Assembly: GCF_003148625.1 (NCBI RefSeq)
Contig: NZ_QGGO01000001.1
Location: 248,001 to 312,000, forward strand
Source: Arcicella aurantiaca
Lineage (GTDB): Bacteria > Bacteroidota > Bacteroidia > Cytophagales > Spirosomataceae
Direction of reading: 5' to 3'
DNA length: 64,000 bases
Program-made: the position numbers and the translations under genes
In this document: positions 722-60,278 of the stretch, one piece after another
Numbering within the stretch: the stretch's first letter is position 1
Layout: every line of letters begins with the position of its first letter
Notes under the pieces: model-generated
What the model was told of the DNA's origin: nothing
Seen by the model: the letters and a program-made list of their open reading frames with translations, nothing else
The model's database searches: none

Positions 722-1046
722 AAATAAAAAAATACCTGTTGGGGTTGTATATTCTACAAATCCAGATTTTGATTTTTCATTTGAGAATGATGAAGTTGCA
801 GAAACTTTACCTCCTGAAAAACAGAAGTTGAAAATTCAGTTGGATAAAAAAGCTCGTGCAGGAAAACAAGTAACTTTAATCACAGGCTTTGTTGGAAATG
901 ACGACGATTTAGAGTCTTTAGGCAAAAAACTAAAAAATCTTTGTGGGTGCGGAGGTTCTGCTAAAGACGGAGAAATATTAATTCAAGGAGATGTAAGAGA
1001 TAAAGTTTTAACTTGGTTAGTTGCACAAGGGTATAAAGCGAAATGA
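714..1046 (+). CDS. SUI1/eIF1-family translation factor (YciH-like)
   Basis: This 110-residue protein belongs to the SUI1 family, whose eukaryotic members govern start-codon selection; the bacterial YciH proteins are thought to act at initiation, with a less certain role. The C-terminal half carries the family core: a basic strand ([17 protein letters not shown]), a helix ([17 protein letters not shown]) and the closing [21 protein letters not shown] three codons earlier is possible, but the ATG at 714 gives the usual compact N-terminus. The gene overlaps the end of the lipid kinase by 8 bases, so the two are probably co-transcribed. A stop-to-stop inverted repeat begins at the base right after its TGA. 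Confidence 0.9.
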
Positions 1047-1220
1047 GTTTAAGAGTTCATGAGTCTATGAGTCTATGAGTTAAGGGTTTATGAGATTATG
1101 AGTTAAATGTCTATTAGCAAATGGTCTATGGAATTATGAATGAAAAGGCTGAGAATTGGAGGTTAATTTGTTTTATTTTACTCATAAACTCTTAACTCAT
1201 GGACTCATAAACTCTTAAAC
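1047..1220. repeat. Stop-to-stop inverted repeat built from 8-mer units
   Basis: The arms at 1047-1072 and 1195-1220 are 26 bases long and pair with two mismatches. The left arm starts at the base after the SUI1-family stop codon and the right arm ends at the base before the lysE-type stop codon, so the structure fills the whole convergent gap. Inside, units such as ATGAGTCT and ATGAGTTA repeat with a period of about eight. It could act as a bidirectional terminator (inference). Confidence 0.75.
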
Positions 1221-1965: not shown

Positions 1966-2097
1966 AAATAGGGAACAGGATTTAGGTGTTAGGGTTTATT
2001 GCTTTTAGAAGATTGACTATCAGGTATTTATAGATAGGTGAAATAATCAAGTTTATGCAAATACTAACCCCTATCTCCTAAATCCCAACCCCTATTT
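1966..2097. repeat. Heptamer-type inverted repeat overlapping the yceI stop codon
   Basis: Two arms, about 1966-1998 and 2064-2097, are inverted degenerate copies of each other. They are built from 7-base units such as TAGGTGT and TAGGGTT. The right arm overlaps the TAA stop of the YceI gene (2096-2098). The same vocabulary (TAGGGGTTGGGATTTAGG) returns at 57593-57623 and, inverted, near 35161-35198. Confidence 0.65.
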
Positions 2098-2626
2098 ACG
2101 CTTGTTTTACCAATTGGATATTTGCAATCAATTTTACTTCTTCACTTACCAAAGCACTACCTGCTTCCGTGATTGCATTCCATGATAAACCGAAATCTTT
2201 GCGGTTGATTTTTCCAGTTAATTCAAAACCTGCTTTTACATTTCCCCAAGGGTCAGTAGCTGTTCCGCCATATTCTACGGCTAAAGTAACTGGTAAAGTT
2301 GTTCCTTTAATAGTTAAATTTCCAGTTAAAGAAAATTCATCATCTGATTTTTTCTTGAATTCTGTTGAGGTAAATGAAAGTGTTGGGAATTGTTCTGCAT
2401 CGAAGAAATCAGCACTTTTCAAGTGTCCGTCACGTTGTTCGCTGTTTGTATCGATAGAATTTACATTAGCTTCAAATGAAATTGCAGCGTTTTCAAAACT
2501 GTCGCCAGCTTCTACTGAACCACTAAATTCCTTGAAAACTCCTGTTACCGTAGTAATTACTAAGTGTTTTACTTTGAATTGAATTTCTGAGTGTGAGGCA
2601 TCAATTGCCCATGTTGAAGTTGCCAT
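2096..2626 (-). CDS. YceI family lipid-binding protein
   Basis: This 176-residue protein is a YceI-family lipocalin-like beta barrel, a fold that binds polyisoprenoids or other amphiphiles. Family features are seen along its length: the start TWAIDASHSEIQFKVKHLV, the middle GNLTIKGTTLPVTL and the closing GKINRKDFGLSWN. No signal peptide is visible, so unlike E. coli YceI it is probably cytoplasmic, as are many Bacteroidota members. The ATG at 2626 gives a normal start. It is transcribed alone, with a strong terminator for the upstream GH97 gene just before it. The function beyond lipid binding is not known from sequence. Confidence 0.92.
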   Translation of the reverse strand: MATSTWAIDASHSEIQFKVKHLVITTVTGVFKEFSGSVEAGDSFENAAISFEANVNSIDTNSEQRDGHLKSADFFDAEQFPTLSFTSTEFKKKSDDEFSLTGNLTIKGTTLPVTLAVEYGGTATDPWGNVKAGFELTGKINRKDFGLSWNAITEAGSALVSEEVKLIANIQLVKQA

Positions 2627-4925: not shown

Positions 4926-5202
4926 GAAATTGTTTTGCTTATTAAAAATGGTTGTTACATAAATTATTCCTCTAAATAACGAAATAAATCAAAAAAATCA
5001 ATCTATTATTGTTGTTAATAGTCAGTGAAATGAGATAAGATTGTTGATAAACATTTACTTTTTTTCTGATTACGATTTTGATTTTTAAGTATATTTTTAA
5101 CCGATTAAGGTTTGCAAAAGAGAAGCGTGTAAACTGCTGATTTTTCAAATTCAGTCATTCGCTTTCTCGCAAATTGCTTTTCGTTTAGCATAAATAAACC
5201 AC

Positions 5203-6120
5203 ATGAAAAATTATCTTTATACGTTTTCCATTATTGTAGCGGCTACTGTAGCTTACTTTTTTCCGCAATATTTCATTTCGATTGGGAATTTTCAACTCAA
5301 AGAACTAATCATTCCTCTGCTCCAAATTATTATGTTTGGCATGGGAACAACCATGAGTTACGACGATTTTTTAGGCGTTGTGAAGATGCCCAAAGCGGTT
5401 ATTGTAGGATTAATTTGTCAATTTACGATTATGCCTTTTTTAGGATTTAGTATTGCAAAAGCCTTTGATTTTCCTCCTGAAATTGCGGCAGGCGTTATTT
5501 TGGTTGGTTGTTCTCCGAGCGGTTTGGCATCTAACGTAATGTCTTATATTGCTAAGGCAAATGTGGCTTTATCTATTACAATTACGTCTTTTGCCACACT
5601 TTTAGCTCCAATTCTTACGCCGTTATTGATGAAACTTTTGGGTGGACAATTTATTGAAATTGATTTTTGGAACATGACTTACGATATTTCCAAAATGATA
5701 ATTATTCCTGTGGGAGTTGGTTTTCTATTGAATAAAATTTTAGCAGGAAGAGCCGAATGGCTACAAAAAGTATTACCAATCATCTCAATGGCGGGAATTG
5801 CAATCATTATTGTAATCATTACCGCAGTTGGGCAAAAATCATTGCAGAGTGTTGGCGTTACGTTAGTGCTTGCGACCTTATTGCACAATATTGGAGGATT
5901 TATTTTGGGTTATTGGGGAGCAAGGTTGTTTAAATTGCCAGAGCAAGATTGCAGAACGGTTGCCATTGAAGTTGGCTTACAAAACTCAGGATTAGCGTCG
6001 GGTTTGGCAAAAGCGATGGGAAAATTAGCAACTGTTGGTATTGCCCCTGCCTTATTTGGACCAATTATGAACGTAAATGGCTCTTTATTAGCGAGTTTTT
6101 GGAGTAAGAAGAAGGTGTAA
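5203..6120 (+). CDS. BASS-family (bile acid:sodium symporter-like) transporter
   Basis: This 305-residue inner-membrane protein has about nine to ten hydrophobic segments and the family features GFILGYWGARLF and EVGLQNSGLASGLA, which match the sodium-coupled BASS transporters. Bacterial members carry organic anions such as pantoate, pyruvate or keto acids; bile acids are unlikely here. The first 30 residues look like a membrane segment, not a cleaved signal. The ATG at 5203 is the only reasonable start. It is monocistronic and converges with the RND permease gene across a repeat-filled gap. Confidence 0.9.
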   Translation: MKNYLYTFSIIVAATVAYFFPQYFISIGNFQLKELIIPLLQIIMFGMGTTMSYDDFLGVVKMPKAVIVGLICQFTIMPFLGFSIAKAFDFPPEIAAGVILVGCSPSGLASNVMSYIAKANVALSITITSFATLLAPILTPLLMKLLGGQFIEIDFWNMTYDISKMIIIPVGVGFLLNKILAGRAEWLQKVLPIISMAGIAIIIVIITAVGQKSLQSVGVTLVLATLLHNIGGFILGYWGARLFKLPEQDCRTVAIEVGLQNSGLASGLAKAMGKLATVGIAPALFGPIMNVNGSLLASFWSKKKV

Positions 6121-6126
6121 AAAAAG

Positions 6127-6252
6127 TCTGAACTACGATTTTTAGGATTGAGAGATTTTATGATTTATTCCTAAAATTCTTCAATCTAAAAAATCATAGT
6201 TCAGAATATTGTTTTTCCTAAAATCCTAAAATCCTAAAAATCATAGTTTGAA
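6127..6252. repeat. Three-copy inverted repeat between convergent genes
   Basis: An arm at 6127-6156 (starting TCTGAACTACGATT) is inverted at about 6176-6205, and a further diverged inverted copy lies at 6223-6252. The right part contains repeated CCTAAAAT octamers. It fills the gap between the BASS gene and the RND gene, and either strand could fold into a terminator-like hairpin. Confidence 0.65.
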
Positions 6253-11059: not shown

Positions 11060-11096
11060 AATGTGTGAGTTGTATTTAGTTAAAGTGTATTTCCCG

Positions 11097-11294
11097 TTCT
11101 GGTTCAAGCGTCCTCGCTTGAACCACTCTCGTACGTAAGCAATTGAACTGCACAAGGTTAATTAGATTTCATGGTTCAAGCGTCGCCGTTCTGGTTCAAG
11201 CGTCCTCGCTTGAACCACTTTCGTGCGTAAGTAATTGAACTGCAAAAGGTTATTTGAATTTCATGGTTCAAGCGAGGACGCTTGAACCAGAGGG
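11097..11294. repeat. 108-bp element copies 2 and 3, fused in tandem
   Basis: Copy 2 (11097-11182) lacks the last part of its right arm and runs straight into copy 3 (11189-11294) through GTCGCCGTT. Both share the palindromic GGTTCAAGCG ends and the centre with the copy at 10435-10542. Centre sequences differ at a few positions, so the copies are not brand new. Confidence 0.85.
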
Positions 11295-22764: not shown

Positions 22765-23151
22765 ATGGTTTCATCCATCACTAATGGCGTAAAAATAAGT
22801 GTTCAGACGGAGTTTCAACCTGAATATTCAAACCCTTTTCAAGCTCATTTTGTGTTTTCTTATCATGTAAGAATTCAGAATGAAAGTGATTTTACCGTGA
22901 AATTATTACGTCGTCATTGGTATATTTATGATGCCAACGGACAAATTCGTGAGGTAGAAGGAGAGGGCGTTGTTGGGCAACAACCAACATTAGAACCGGG
23001 ACAAAGCTATGAATACACTTCTGGTTGTAACCTAAATACTTCTATTGGAAAAATGGCAGGAACATATCAGATGGAAAGAGTTTTTGATGGAAAATATTTC
23101 AACGTAATTATCCCAGATTTTAATCTAATTGCTCCCTTTAGAATGAATTAG
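22765..23151 (+). CDS. apaG: ApaG domain protein
   Basis: ApaG is a 128-residue single-domain protein of fibronectin-III-like fold; the name comes from E. coli, where mutants affect cobalt and magnesium handling, and its molecular role is unsettled. The family landmarks are clear: VSVQTEFQPEYS-type opening, YHVRIQNESDFTVKLLRRHW, and GEGVVGQQPTLEPGQSYEYTSG. The ATG at 22765 is the standard start. The TAG stop (23149-23151) is the first triplet of a heptamer array. It is followed on the same strand by a methyltransferase gene after 175 bases. Confidence 0.95.
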   Translation: MVSSITNGVKISVQTEFQPEYSNPFQAHFVFSYHVRIQNESDFTVKLLRRHWYIYDANGQIREVEGEGVVGQQPTLEPGQSYEYTSGCNLNTSIGKMAGTYQMERVFDGKYFNVIIPDFNLIAPFRMN

Positions 23152-23301
23152 ATTGGGGTTATGGGAATTGGTTACTGGAAATTAGTTATTGGTTGACTCA
23201 ATTATATAATTCTTGAAAATATTAGACAATTCCAGTAAAATATTAAATTGGTAATTAGCCCTTTTCCCGTTTTCCAATCACCAATAACTAATCACCAAAC
23301 A
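23149..23301. repeat. Heptamer-type inverted repeat after apaG
   Basis: Starting with the apaG stop triplet, units such as TAGATTG and GGGTTAT repeat with a 7-base period to about 23197. From about 23262 to 23301 come inverse units such as CCAATCA and CCAATAA. The two parts form an imperfect inverted repeat. Confidence 0.65.
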
Positions 23302-33458: not shown

Positions 33459-33575
33459 ATGACTGATACAGTTTTCGGAACATACCTTGCTTGGGCTTTT
33501 TATATTGCATTGTTTACAGCATCTGGATTTGTAGGTGTAAAATTGCAAAAAATCTATAACGAAAGAGGTAAGTAG
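33459..33575 (+). CDS. 38-residue single-span membrane protein
   Basis: A 38-codon frame encodes one predicted membrane helix (TYLAWAFYIALFTASGFVGV, about residues 8-27) with a short basic tail KLQKIYNERGK. I know of no named family. Three things support a real gene: a TATCTTTG box 45 bases upstream, an AAAATCATG start context like that of its neighbours, and an inverted repeat that begins exactly at the base after its TAG, as these repeats do at other gene ends here. It could be an accessory subunit of a membrane complex, but no partner is evident. Confidence 0.6.
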   Translation: MTDTVFGTYLAWAFYIALFTASGFVGVKLQKIYNERGK

Positions 33576-33650
33576 TTTTATCAGTGAACAGTTATCAGTA
33601 AACAGTTTATGTAAGAGTAGCTGTTTACTGATAACTGTTTACTGTTTAAA
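33576..33650. repeat. Stop-to-stop heptamer inverted repeat (CAGTAAA type)
   Basis: Arms at 33576-33605 and 33621-33650 pair with three mismatches in 30. Units such as CAGTTAT and CAGTAAA repeat every seven bases. The left arm begins right after the stop of the small gene and the right arm contains the hslU stop codon (33646-33648). Confidence 0.82.
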
Positions 33651-38604: not shown

Positions 38605-38686
38605 GAGTTAAAAGTTAAAAATTAAGAGTTAAAAGTTATGGCGTGAGTTGAGTCACCTTTAAACTTTAACCTTTAACTCTTCCCTT
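38602..38686. repeat. Stop-to-stop heptamer inverted repeat (AGTTAAA type)
   Basis: From the ggt stop, units such as AGTTAAA and AATTAAG repeat with period seven to about 38637. Inverse units such as CTTTAAC fill 38656-38684, up to the stop codon of the GNAT gene (38685-38687). Confidence 0.75.
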
Positions 38687-43233: not shown

Positions 43234-44013
43234 ATGGGTAAAATAATTGCCATAGCCAACCAAAAAGGCGGTGTAGGAAAAACCACAACTACCATTAATT
43301 TAGCGGCAAGTTTGGCTGCATTAGAGTTCAGAACACTCATTGTAGATGCTGACCCGCAAGCCAACTCTACTTCGGGGTTGGGGTATAATCCCAAAGAAAT
43401 TGAGAATTCGATTTACGAATGTATGGTTGATGGTGTTTTGGCTCAGGATATTATCATTGCCACTGACCTGCCTTATTTACACATCATTCCTTCGCACATT
43501 GACTTAGTTGGAGCTGAAATCGAAATGATTAATCTTCGTGACCGTGAGCAAAAAATGAAAGAATCGTTAGAGCCAATTTCTGCGAATTACGATTTTATCA
43601 TCATCGACTGTTCTCCATCATTAGGTTTAATTACCATTAATGCCCTTACTGCGGCAGACTCAGTGATTATTCCAGTACAATGTGAATATTTTGCTCTTGA
43701 AGGTCTCGGAAAATTATTGAACACCGTAAAAATTATCCAGTCTCGTTTGAATACCAATCTTGCGATTGAAGGTATTCTTTTGACTATGTATGATTTACGT
43801 GTTCGCCTCTCTAATCAAGTTGTGGCAGAAGTAACAGCTCACTTTCATAACATGGTTTTCAATACTATTATTCCTCGAAATATTCGCCTTTCTGAATCTC
43901 CAAGTTTTGGTGTACCTGCCATTGCTCATGATTCTGAAAGTAAAGGAGCAATTAGTTATCTTAATCTCGCTCGTGAGGTTTTGGCAAAAAATGGATACGT
44001 TACACAAGAATAG
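43234..44013 (+). CDS. parA: Chromosome partitioning ATPase ParA (Soj)
   Basis: ParA is the ATPase that moves ParB-parS complexes during chromosome segregation. The 259-residue product has the deviant Walker A motif KGGVGKTTTTINLA, Walker A' LIVDADPQANSTSGLG and Walker B IIIDCSPSLGLITINAL. The start is the ATG at 43234 (MGKIIAIANQ); an ATG at 43189 is in frame but adds 15 unconserved residues. It is followed by parB after a repeat-filled gap. Its TAG stop is the first triplet of a heptamer array. The absence of a long N-terminal domain marks it as chromosomal, not plasmid type Ia. Confidence 0.96.
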   Translation: MGKIIAIANQKGGVGKTTTTINLAASLAALEFRTLIVDADPQANSTSGLGYNPKEIENSIYECMVDGVLAQDIIIATDLPYLHIIPSHIDLVGAEIEMINLRDREQKMKESLEPISANYDFIIIDCSPSLGLITINALTAADSVIIPVQCEYFALEGLGKLLNTVKIIQSRLNTNLAIEGILLTMYDLRVRLSNQVVAEVTAHFHNMVFNTIIPRNIRLSESPSFGVPAIAHDSESKGAISYLNLAREVLAKNGYVTQE

Positions 44014-44138
44014 AGGTTAGGTGTTAGGGATTAGGTAGTAGTTATGAGGTATGAGGTATGAGGTATTTTTGTACCTTTTATGTTACACCTTTTATCCAAT
44101 GCTTAAACCTTATACCTCATACCTTCGACCTCATAACT
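44011..44138. repeat. Heptamer arrays and inverted repeat between parA and parB
   Basis: Beginning with the parA TAG, units such as TAGAGGT and TAGGTGT repeat every seven bases to about 44037. Then comes ATGAGGT in three exact copies (44045-44065), whose inverse lies at 44111-44138. It separates two codirectional genes of one operon. Confidence 0.78.
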
Positions 44139-45866: not shown

Positions 45867-45875
45867 ATTTAGTTA

Positions 45876-46025
45876 AGAGTAAAGAGTAAAGAGTAAAGAG
45901 TAAAGAGTAGAGAGTAACGGGGTATGAGTTATGAATTTGCGGAGTGATTTTCCAATAAATTTTACTACTTACCACTTATAACTCATAACTCATAATTCAT
46001 AATTCATAACTTCTAATTCATAACT
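45876..46025. repeat. Heptamer arrays (AGAGTAA x6 and ATAACTC/ATAATTC) before dapB
   Basis: Six 7-base units, five of AGAGTAA and one of AGAGTAG, run without a gap at 45876-45917. After a short GAGTTAT pair, a second array of ATAACTC and ATAATTC units fills about 45976-46025. The second array is inverse to the GAGTTAT part. This is the clearest heptamer locus in the window. Confidence 0.85.
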
Positions 46026-46040
46026 ACTACCTAAAAAAAT

Positions 46041-56239: not shown

Positions 56240-56278
56240 TCTAACACCTAACACCTAACACCTAACACCTAACACCTA
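56240..56278. repeat. Perfect heptamer array (TAGGTGT) starting at the photolyase stop codon
   Basis: Five consecutive copies of the 7-base unit TAGGTGT (read on the minus strand) begin with the photolyase stop codon itself (TAG, 56276-56278). All copies are exact, so this array is young compared with the degenerate ones. Confidence 0.88.
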
Positions 56279-59044: not shown

Positions 59045-60165
59045 TGAATACTTTTCAAATAAAATATTTTGATGGAGTAACTTCTGCTATTCAAGAAGGA
59101 ACTGTAAAATTGTCGTATGGACATTGGGATATTAGGCTTGAAAAACCTGATGGAACAATGTCTTCCATTCATTGGCAATTGAAAGATATAAAGCAAACTG
59201 AGTTTGTGGGGAATACCAATATTTTTAAATATGGCGATTTTCCACAACAAACGCTTGAATGTAACGACCCTGATTTTGTCAAAGCACTTTCTCTGCAATA
59301 TCCTGATTATGAATTTTTTAAGAAAGAATATTTTTGGGCTTTGAATAAAGGAACAGGCGTTTTTGTGGGAATTACTGTTGTGTTATTGTTGCTCTGTGTA
59401 GGCGTTTATAAATATATTTTGCCCTCAGTTGCTGAAAGTTTAGCGTTAACTGTTCCGCAAGAATATGAGATAAAGTGGGGAAATATGATGTTTGAAAATA
59501 TGATTCAAGCACCGAAAAAGGGAGAAATGGGCAGCGAGTTAAATCTGACAAAAAATGATACTCTGAGCCGACTCGCCAATCAATTTGTGAAGGAAATTGA
59601 TTTTAAAACCACTTATCCTATCAAAATAACGGTCGTAAATGAAAAAGTGGTCAATGCTTTTGCTCTTCCTGGTGGTAATGTAGTTGTATTTAACGGCTTA
59701 CTAAAAAAGATGAAGACCAAAGAAGAATTTGCTGCTTTATTGGGGCATGAAGTTGCTCACGTAACGCATAAACATTCTTTGAAAAATATCTTTAGAAGTT
59801 TGTCTGGCTATTTGTTTATGTCTTTGATTACGAATGACTTAAACGGAATAACGGCGGTCATTTTAGACAATGCCAATAAATTACAAAACTTAGGTTATTC
59901 GAGAGAATTAGAAGCTGAAGCCGACGAAAGTTCGATGAAAACGTTAAAGGAAAATAAGATTCCGACGAAAGGTTTATTGAATCTTTTTAAAATTTTAGAA
60001 GATAGCTCGCAAGTTGCTCCTCCAGAATTATTGAGTTCTCATCCACTCACAGAAGAACGCATGAAGTTTGCCAAAAAGAATCAAATTATGAATGAAAAAA
60101 TTATCGAAAATCCTCGTTTAGAGTCAATATGGAAGGAAATACTTATTGCAGAGAATAAATTATAG
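59044..60165 (+). CDS. M48 family zinc metalloprotease with N-terminal membrane anchor
   Basis: This 373-residue protein has an N-terminal region of about 100 residues without clear similarity, a membrane segment at about residues 107-128 (GVFVGITVVLLLLCVGVYKYI) and an M48 peptidase domain. The zinc motif is HEVAH in LLGHEVAHVTHKHSLKN (near residue 236), with the third ligand in SRELEAEADESSMKTL. M48 proteases act in envelope quality control. Coupling to the DUF898 gene suggests that both act on one membrane pathway; similar DUF898-M48 pairs occur elsewhere in Bacteroidota and Proteobacteria (from memory). Its TAG stop starts a heptamer array. Confidence 0.9.
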   Translation: MNTFQIKYFDGVTSAIQEGTVKLSYGHWDIRLEKPDGTMSSIHWQLKDIKQTEFVGNTNIFKYGDFPQQTLECNDPDFVKALSLQYPDYEFFKKEYFWALNKGTGVFVGITVVLLLLCVGVYKYILPSVAESLALTVPQEYEIKWGNMMFENMIQAPKKGEMGSELNLTKNDTLSRLANQFVKEIDFKTTYPIKITVVNEKVVNAFALPGGNVVVFNGLLKKMKTKEEFAALLGHEVAHVTHKHSLKNIFRSLSGYLFMSLITNDLNGITAVILDNANKLQNLGYSRELEAEADESSMKTLKENKIPTKGLLNLFKILEDSSQVAPPELLSSHPLTEERMKFAKKNQIMNEKIIENPRLESIWKEILIAENKL

Positions 60166-60278
60166 AGAATAGATTTTAGAGAATAGGGATTAAGTTTATA
60201 ATAGATTTCGAAGATGGGACAGGATAGTTTTCTCTAAACTCTATTCTCTGAAATCTATCATCTATTCTCTGAACTCTA
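60163..60278. repeat. Stop-to-stop heptamer inverted repeat (TAGAGAA type)
   Basis: On the plus strand the M48 stop TAG (60163-60165) opens units such as TAGAGAA and TAGATTT. On the minus strand the ABC ATPase stop TAG (60276-60278) opens units such as TAGAGTT and CAGAGAA. The two arrays are inverse to each other and fill the convergent gap completely. Confidence 0.85.

Follow-up and report, generated by a model that had tools for sequence, protein, structure and literature searches.

Heptamer arrays near gene 3' ends in Arcicella aurantiaca: the stop codon looks more like an edge of the array than its seed

Many of the arrays of degenerate 7-base units in the intergenic DNA of Arcicella aurantiaca are read here as the arms of inverted repeats near gene 3' ends, most likely terminator-like or 3'-end hairpins, often bidirectional, at places occupied by intrinsic terminators in other species, a reading to which, the inferred function included, we give about an even chance. 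In it the stop codon resembles a boundary of the array more than a seed from which the units grew. The original prediction held that arrays are placed to the base at gene ends and that the stop triplet would be the seed of the unit if arrays extend from the gene end; the positional regularity at stops is true and narrower than first claimed, and the excess of arrays at zero distance is real but corresponds to 8% of array-bearing ends. Heptamer arrays are found in several phyla and have no agreed function, and at the orthologous gene ends of congeners the stop stays fixed while the hairpin is swapped for one built from another unit, in both arms at once.

Heptamer arrays and the named loci

The window is the whole stretch of 64,000 bases, 248001–312000 of contig C1 of genome G000 (5.93 Mb, 70 contigs), and was analysed within a sample of 1,583,275 bases of this genome (27%), comprising contigs C1, C2 and C4 whole and parts of 18 contigs. 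The comparison set consists of eight genomes of one genus (G000–G007, G000 included), the seven congeners being covered in part. Genes were called by our own hexamer scorer, which misses short genes, and arrays by a finder that misses degenerate arms. The names M48 and ABC derive from Pfam; the M48 protein of the window is 91% identical to one from a Cytophagales MAG and 43% identical to three Dyadobacter records.

In the first 796 kb, the self-match of intergenic DNA at lag 7 is 0.329 in comparison to 0.284–0.310 at lags 4–6 and 8–13, with period 14 as strong as period 7 and periods 8 and 15 slightly raised, while coding DNA (0.264 at lag 7) has no peak; period-7 arrays scoring at least 12 are enriched in intergenic DNA (64 intergenic, 7 coding). 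Read inward from the gene in arrays with G>C, the consensus unit is T-A-G-[GT]-T-[AT]-[TA] (TAGKTWW), with A at 83% and G at 89%; the triplet TAG is part of it, and a G-tract of three or four is lacking in the consensus and present in some units. The reading with G>C points inward in 39 of 46 arms of convergent gaps, 94 of 118 of co-directional gaps, and 19 of 35 of divergent gaps. An array is held by 28 of 144 convergent, 77 of 587 co-directional, and 23 of 180 divergent gaps; counted per gap, arrays are thus not rarer between divergent genes than between co-directional ones, while their density per kb is 0.44 in divergent versus 0.71 in co-directional gaps. A scan of the window against Rfam gave no match at the gathering score.

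Other repeats were observed beside these arrays. Two facing arrays of the window (1043–1104 and 1180–1221) have period 8, not 7 (ATGAGTTT, ACTCATAA), and at 11094–11274 a 92-base unit occurs twice; it contains GGTTCAAGCG...CGCTTGAACC palindromes and is of a different kind from the heptamer arrays. On contig C47 of G000 (4988–6165) one 24-base heptamer pattern matches four times at long spacings, which suggests a larger repeat; in G002 a different repeat, TAGCCCCCTAACCCCC..., stands at two convergent gene ends of contig C8 and near otc.

The gap between the convergent M48 and ABC genes is the locus from which the analysis started. Both stops (60163–60165 and 60276–60278) are TAG, as read directly from the sequence. 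That each stop is the first triplet of its array holds for the ABC side, whose arm opens with the stop and reads on the minus strand TAGAGTT CAGAGAA TAGATGA TAGATTT CAGAGAA TAGAGTT TAGAGAA (units defined by eye and by column count, the arm being too degenerate for the array finder), but not for the M48 side, where the array starts 13 bases before the stop. When the stop was predicted from the 42 bases 3' of it, five of the seven named genes (M48, ABC, phr, parA, and hslU) had their stop in the register of the unit, while apaG and YceI, which had been named with them, did not; in the 42 bases following the M48 stop the 7-periodicity is no higher than in shuffles (p 0.19). The features of the window are as follows.

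60163..60278, strand not assigned: M48–ABC convergent gap including both stops, inverted repeat with heptamer arms (RNA fold −33.3 kcal/mol, z −2.7)
60150..60186, plus: M48-side array, starting within the gene 13 bases before the stop (array detection)
60228..60278, minus: degenerate ABC-side arm, opening with the stop (column count; TRF finds part of it, 60230–60258)
56241..56278, minus: phr array built of TAGGTGT units, with the stop in register and the array left unpaired in the fold (repeat detection, register, fold)
44011..44066, plus: parA array, TAG stop in register (array finder, register test)
44102..44124, plus: right arm of the parA gap (array finder; fold z −4.6)
33578..33607, plus: left arm of the hslU hairpin (repeat detection; fold z −10)
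33621..33648, minus: right arm of the hslU hairpin, opening on this strand with the hslU stop TAA (repeat detection, register, fold)
38606..38638, plus: left arm of a convergent gap, stop T 4 bases away (repeat detection)
38657..38677, minus: right arm of the same gap, stop T 10 bases away (array finder)
45871..45917, plus: left array of AGTAAAG, stop T 7 bases away (repeat detection)
45962..46029, plus: right array of ACTCATA in the same gap, preceding a start (repeat detection)
23149..23189, plus: apaG stop with a degenerate repeat after it, stop out of register (repeat detection, register test)
2060..2098, minus: YceI stop with a repeat after it, stop out of register (register test)

An unlisted ORF of 38 residues (MTDTVFGTYLAW...) lies on the plus strand at 33459–33575, with a look-alike seen by eye in a gap of G001; its stop is TAG (33573–33575), and with it the hslU hairpin spans from stop to stop.

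Distance and register of arrays at stop codons

In the sample, 143 gene ends have an array in the adjoining gap; one, at a distance d of −24 (d being measured from the array edge to the T of the stop), was excluded, and the remaining 142 were compared with two nulls of uniform placement, each of 1000 runs. The array starts upstream of the stop (d<0) at 21 ends, exactly on it (d=0) at 11, at 1–13 bases from it at 50, at 14–40 bases at 11, and further away at 49. The 11 cases at zero compare with null means of 1.4 and 2.9 (highest runs 6 and 10), and the 46 at 0–7 bases with means of 9.7 and 16.9 (highest 19 and 29), so that neither count was ever reached by a null run; the 23 cases at 0–3 bases (means 5.3 and 11.5, highest 15 and 23) were equalled by the top run of the more generous null. 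The distribution over 1.58 Mb is therefore not flat and is sharper at gene ends than short gaps predict, as had been proposed, while placement to the base describes the 11 ends at zero and not the majority of array-bearing ends, which lie elsewhere. The same distances at start codons, for which a parallel check had been suggested, indicate that starts are approached as well (35 of 138 array edges at 0–7 bases; null 9.8, highest 18) with no peak at zero, a single edge of 138 being found there versus 1.6 in the null.

The register of the stop with the unit was evaluated by extrapolating the unit backwards over all 81 near-stop arrays with its six rotations as controls, because the edge of an array is itself defined by the match to the unit and a count on arrays with d≤0 alone is circular. 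Of the 81 arrays, 16 have the stop in register, and the rotations predict it in 4, 5, 1, 2, 1, and 2; when the count is restricted to d≥0 the excess shrinks (8 of 61 versus 2.5 expected, p 0.003). The match to the extrapolated unit is 0.26–0.43 upstream of the stop (0.25–0.33 for rotated units), 0.42–0.56 over the stop, and 0.72–0.91 from position 5 onward. In addition, the stop is TAG in 18 of 33 cases in which it is internal to an array, in comparison to 253 of 1173 ends without arrays. That the share of stops in register exceeds random phase counts against reading the arrays simply as hairpins at a gene boundary.

Hairpins at gene 3' ends and the alternative explanations

Among convergent gaps, 64 of 135 carry inverted repeats at the gap ends, with or without arrays, that exceed the 99% level of the null; the corresponding counts are 95 of 551 for co-directional and 4 of 138 for divergent gaps, so that these inverted repeats track gene 3' ends. 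Their stop-side edges fall at 0–7 bases in 51 of 158 array-free cases and in 21 of 65 cases with arrays, and since array-free inverted repeats are also found near stops, closeness to the stop is a general property of such hairpins. Among the four gaps of the window that were folded, those of hslU, parA, and M48/ABC pair their arms with the z-scores given above; the phr array is unpaired and stands beside another hairpin, which argues against the hairpin reading, as does the weaker folding of convergent gaps with arrays (mean z −5.2, 20 gaps) relative to those without (−7.0, 80 gaps), these class values being drawn from no more than 80 gaps in any class, each with 12 shuffles.

Where the array stands at the stop, 6 of 68 ends have a canonical terminator, versus 205 of 701 ends without arrays (p 1.6e-4); ends with the array elsewhere in the gap display no drop (13 of 52). 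By eye, the T-tract of intrinsic terminators is absent from the array arms. The hslU stop is shared by 7 genomes; after it come arrays in G000 and G007, a different repeat hairpin in G002, and, by eye, hairpin-plus-T terminators in G001, G004, G005, and G006 (in the latter within the part of the gap seen). Against the terminator-like reading stand the absence of the T-tract, the per-gap frequency of arrays in divergent gaps, equal to that of co-directional ones, and a few array gaps that also hold a canonical terminator enclosed by the arms. Such nested hairpins, with heptamer arms around a hairpin-plus-T terminator, were observed in gap C2|74 of G002 and at C1:192329–192624 of G000.

The two arms of a gap appear to be altered jointly. 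Over 43 gaps that hold two arrays, arms of the same gap agree on average at 5.23 of 7 unit positions versus 4.28 across gaps, a value reached in none of 2000 permutations. The genus was searched for six of the 16 genes with an in-register stop (M48, hslU, sdhA, plsX, otc, and dprA), and gene ends were compared for sdhA (7 relatives), plsX (7), and otc (6 of 7), those of dprA being left out. For plsX, sdhA, and otc, with one sdhA relative interrupted by a contig end excluded, the left arm pairs with its own right arm with a mean of 14.9 (22 cases) and with that of other species with a mean of 8.4 (140 cases); sdhA shows little of this advantage, and strong cross-matches occur between some species, including the otc arms of G003 and G005. 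Template switching or gene conversion could account for the likeness of the two arms. The upkeep of hairpins by template switching is described for RNA genes (PMC8794818); it offers a route by which both arms could change jointly, with the difference that here the matching of arms is known from comparison.

The computed basis of the terminator-like reading is therefore made up of position, pairing of arms, sharing of the unit within a gap, exchange of units between congeners, and the lower frequency of canonical terminators. In the mechanism proposed with it, units would multiply by slippage and selection on the coding sequence would halt the array at the stop codon; a unit offering TAG or TAA in the right phase would let the stop be absorbed into the array, which would otherwise end a few bases short.

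A possible, though doubtful, alternative is that the arrays are selfish or purely mutational, i.e., slippage-prone repeats with no function that persist in intergenic DNA wherever selection permits. Units and arrays vary between congeners at most gaps viewed, arrays are present in divergent gaps too, and similar arrays with no function assigned were found by Rehm et al. (PMC4692102), all of which would be expected in this case; the concentration of inverted repeats at gene 3' ends and the matching of the two arms would not, and neither would the scarcity of canonical terminators next to arrays, though overwriting could also cause the latter.

It is rather unlikely that stops are recruited from the arrays, i.e., that an array overruns the gene end and the gene then stops at the first in-frame stop inside it, as MacGregor argued for TAACTGA (PMC4679880). 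The 21 arrays starting upstream of the stop are in agreement with such an event, as are the G001 orthologs of the gap C1:155719–155787, which end within repeats, one protein being 5 residues longer. However, the C-terminus is unchanged in 27 of 33 pairs of an array-bearing gene and its array-less ortholog (191 of 269 for pairs in which both sides lack arrays) and proteins are not generally enlarged, so that recruitment as a general rule is already weak; in these pairs single genes are counted more than once and the genomes of the relatives are partial.

The growth of the array from the gene end, with the stop triplet as the first copy of the unit, is improbable as an explanation and, as the general seed that had been envisaged, is not supported, on three grounds. 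An array that has lost its first unit to decay would then be expected to remain in phase with the stop, and the 38 arrays that start 4–13 bases after it have no preference over the seven phases (chi-square p 0.78). In array-less orthologs with the same C-terminus (27 pairs, in which genes recur), positions +3 to +10 agree with the unit seen in the array bearer at a mean of 0.34 versus 0.32 for rotated units, so that the unit is absent there. Finally, the type of stop varies. The stop of parA is TAG with an array and TAA in orthologs with none; that of M48 is TAG with an array and TAA in the array-less G003, the ortholog of G007 having TAG two residues later; the phr ortholog of G002 ends with TGA two residues earlier; sdhA has TAG in G000, G004, and G005 and TAA in the other 5 of 8 genomes; hslU has TAA with an array, and in the array-less pairs counted TAA in 3 of 4 and TAG in 1 of 4. 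The position of the stop is the same in all relatives compared for sdhA (7 of 7), plsX (7 of 7), and otc (6 of 6). Since the identity of the stop changes at a fixed position in parA, M48, and sdhA, these changes fit an array that overwrites the stop with one offered by its unit.

A few gene ends, together with the 16 in-register stops, favor the seed nonetheless: otc reads TAGGGA in G003 and G005, both of which lack an array there; TAGAGC stands at the end of the ABC ortholog in G003, also array-less; and at plsX 7 of 8 genomes show TAG with heptamers after it (by eye), TAA being the stop of the array-less one and the seven carrying three unit types with the spacing one base off in two (by eye). 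At such ends, of which plsX is the best candidate, the TAG stop might conceivably be a founding and maintained unit that anchors the array, a new unit that rewrites both arms during species divergence keeping the same register, although we regard this as improbable too; if true, translation stop and hairpin would share one triplet.

A mobile inverted-repeat element inserting at gene ends is very improbable: arms are paired at many gaps, but the unit varies from gap to gap, and where the array is confined to G000 the gap is about as long as its ortholog (18 pairs, median difference 9 bases). A clean, MITE-like insertion was rejected, no clean empty site being present among the gaps viewed. The idea that arrays mark rearrangement breakpoints, from which their edges at gene ends would follow, is the least probable of all; C1 and contig C16 of G002 differ strongly in gene order, yet array gaps retain their neighbours in 24 of 29 cases versus 96 of 130 for other gaps, and in a larger set in 27 of 33 versus 105 of 155, so that arrays are not enriched at breaks and the idea is not supported. 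On these two contigs genes are 64–97% identical, with the order shuffled over short distances.

Comparison with known systems

Such arrays have been reported before near the stop codons of other bacteria (PMC4692102, PMC4679880). Rehm et al. (2015) described heptameric GGGAATC and GGGGA(C/T)T repeats in Xanthomonas and Nostoc (PMC4692102). These resemble the present arrays as 7-base intergenic arrays, sense near stops and antisense near starts, with overlaps with stop codons, pairs in inverted orientation (70 and 75 cases there), length and sequence that vary between relatives, and no association with mobile elements; the closeness to stops with a fixed strand, which characterizes those repeats, was found here as well. 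They differ in that there one G-rich unit, capable of forming a quadruplex, is repeated, whereas here many T/A-rich units occur; in that they are fewer between divergent genes, while arrays as such are not rarer there in the present genome; and in that distances were given in 50-bp classes, in comparison to the base-exact register and arm matching measured here. Among the papers listed by literature searches, none deals in its title or opening abstract with the base-exact register of stops or the matching of arms in such arrays, and the claim to novelty extends no wider.

MacGregor (2015) described TAACTGA direct repeats in Beggiatoaceae, Cyanobacteria, and some Bacteroidetes, whose overlaps with stops were explained by the stop triplets within the unit (PMC4679880). 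TAACTGA occurs in G000 also, near starts and with stop overlaps: a three-unit pattern matches 44 times forward and 27 times in reverse when overlapping matches are counted, and exact tandem copies are found in G000 and 8 more of 150 genomes of the family. At C1:205965–206037 of G000 about ten TAACTGA units, the last 2 bases before a start codon, stand with no paired arm, which counts against the hairpin reading like the unpaired phr array. In the system of MacGregor a single unit lies mostly upstream of starts, with one inverted repeat in the main genome; in contrast, G000 has many units and paired arms, and the unit of the M48/ABC array is a different one. REP and BIME elements consist of one conserved palindrome in many copies, whereas here units vary from gap to gap, and the arrays do not belong with them.

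Intrinsic (Rho-independent) terminators share with many of the arrays, though not with that of phr, a hairpin by the gene 3' end in the same place as the terminators of the relatives. The difference is in the arms, which are degenerate tandem heptamers, a canonical stem with T-tract occurring at 6 of 68 array-at-stop ends. Since the gene ends of congeners can be compared directly, with ordinary terminators in the same place in other species, both the ending of transcripts at the arrays and the joint rewriting of the two arms become testable.
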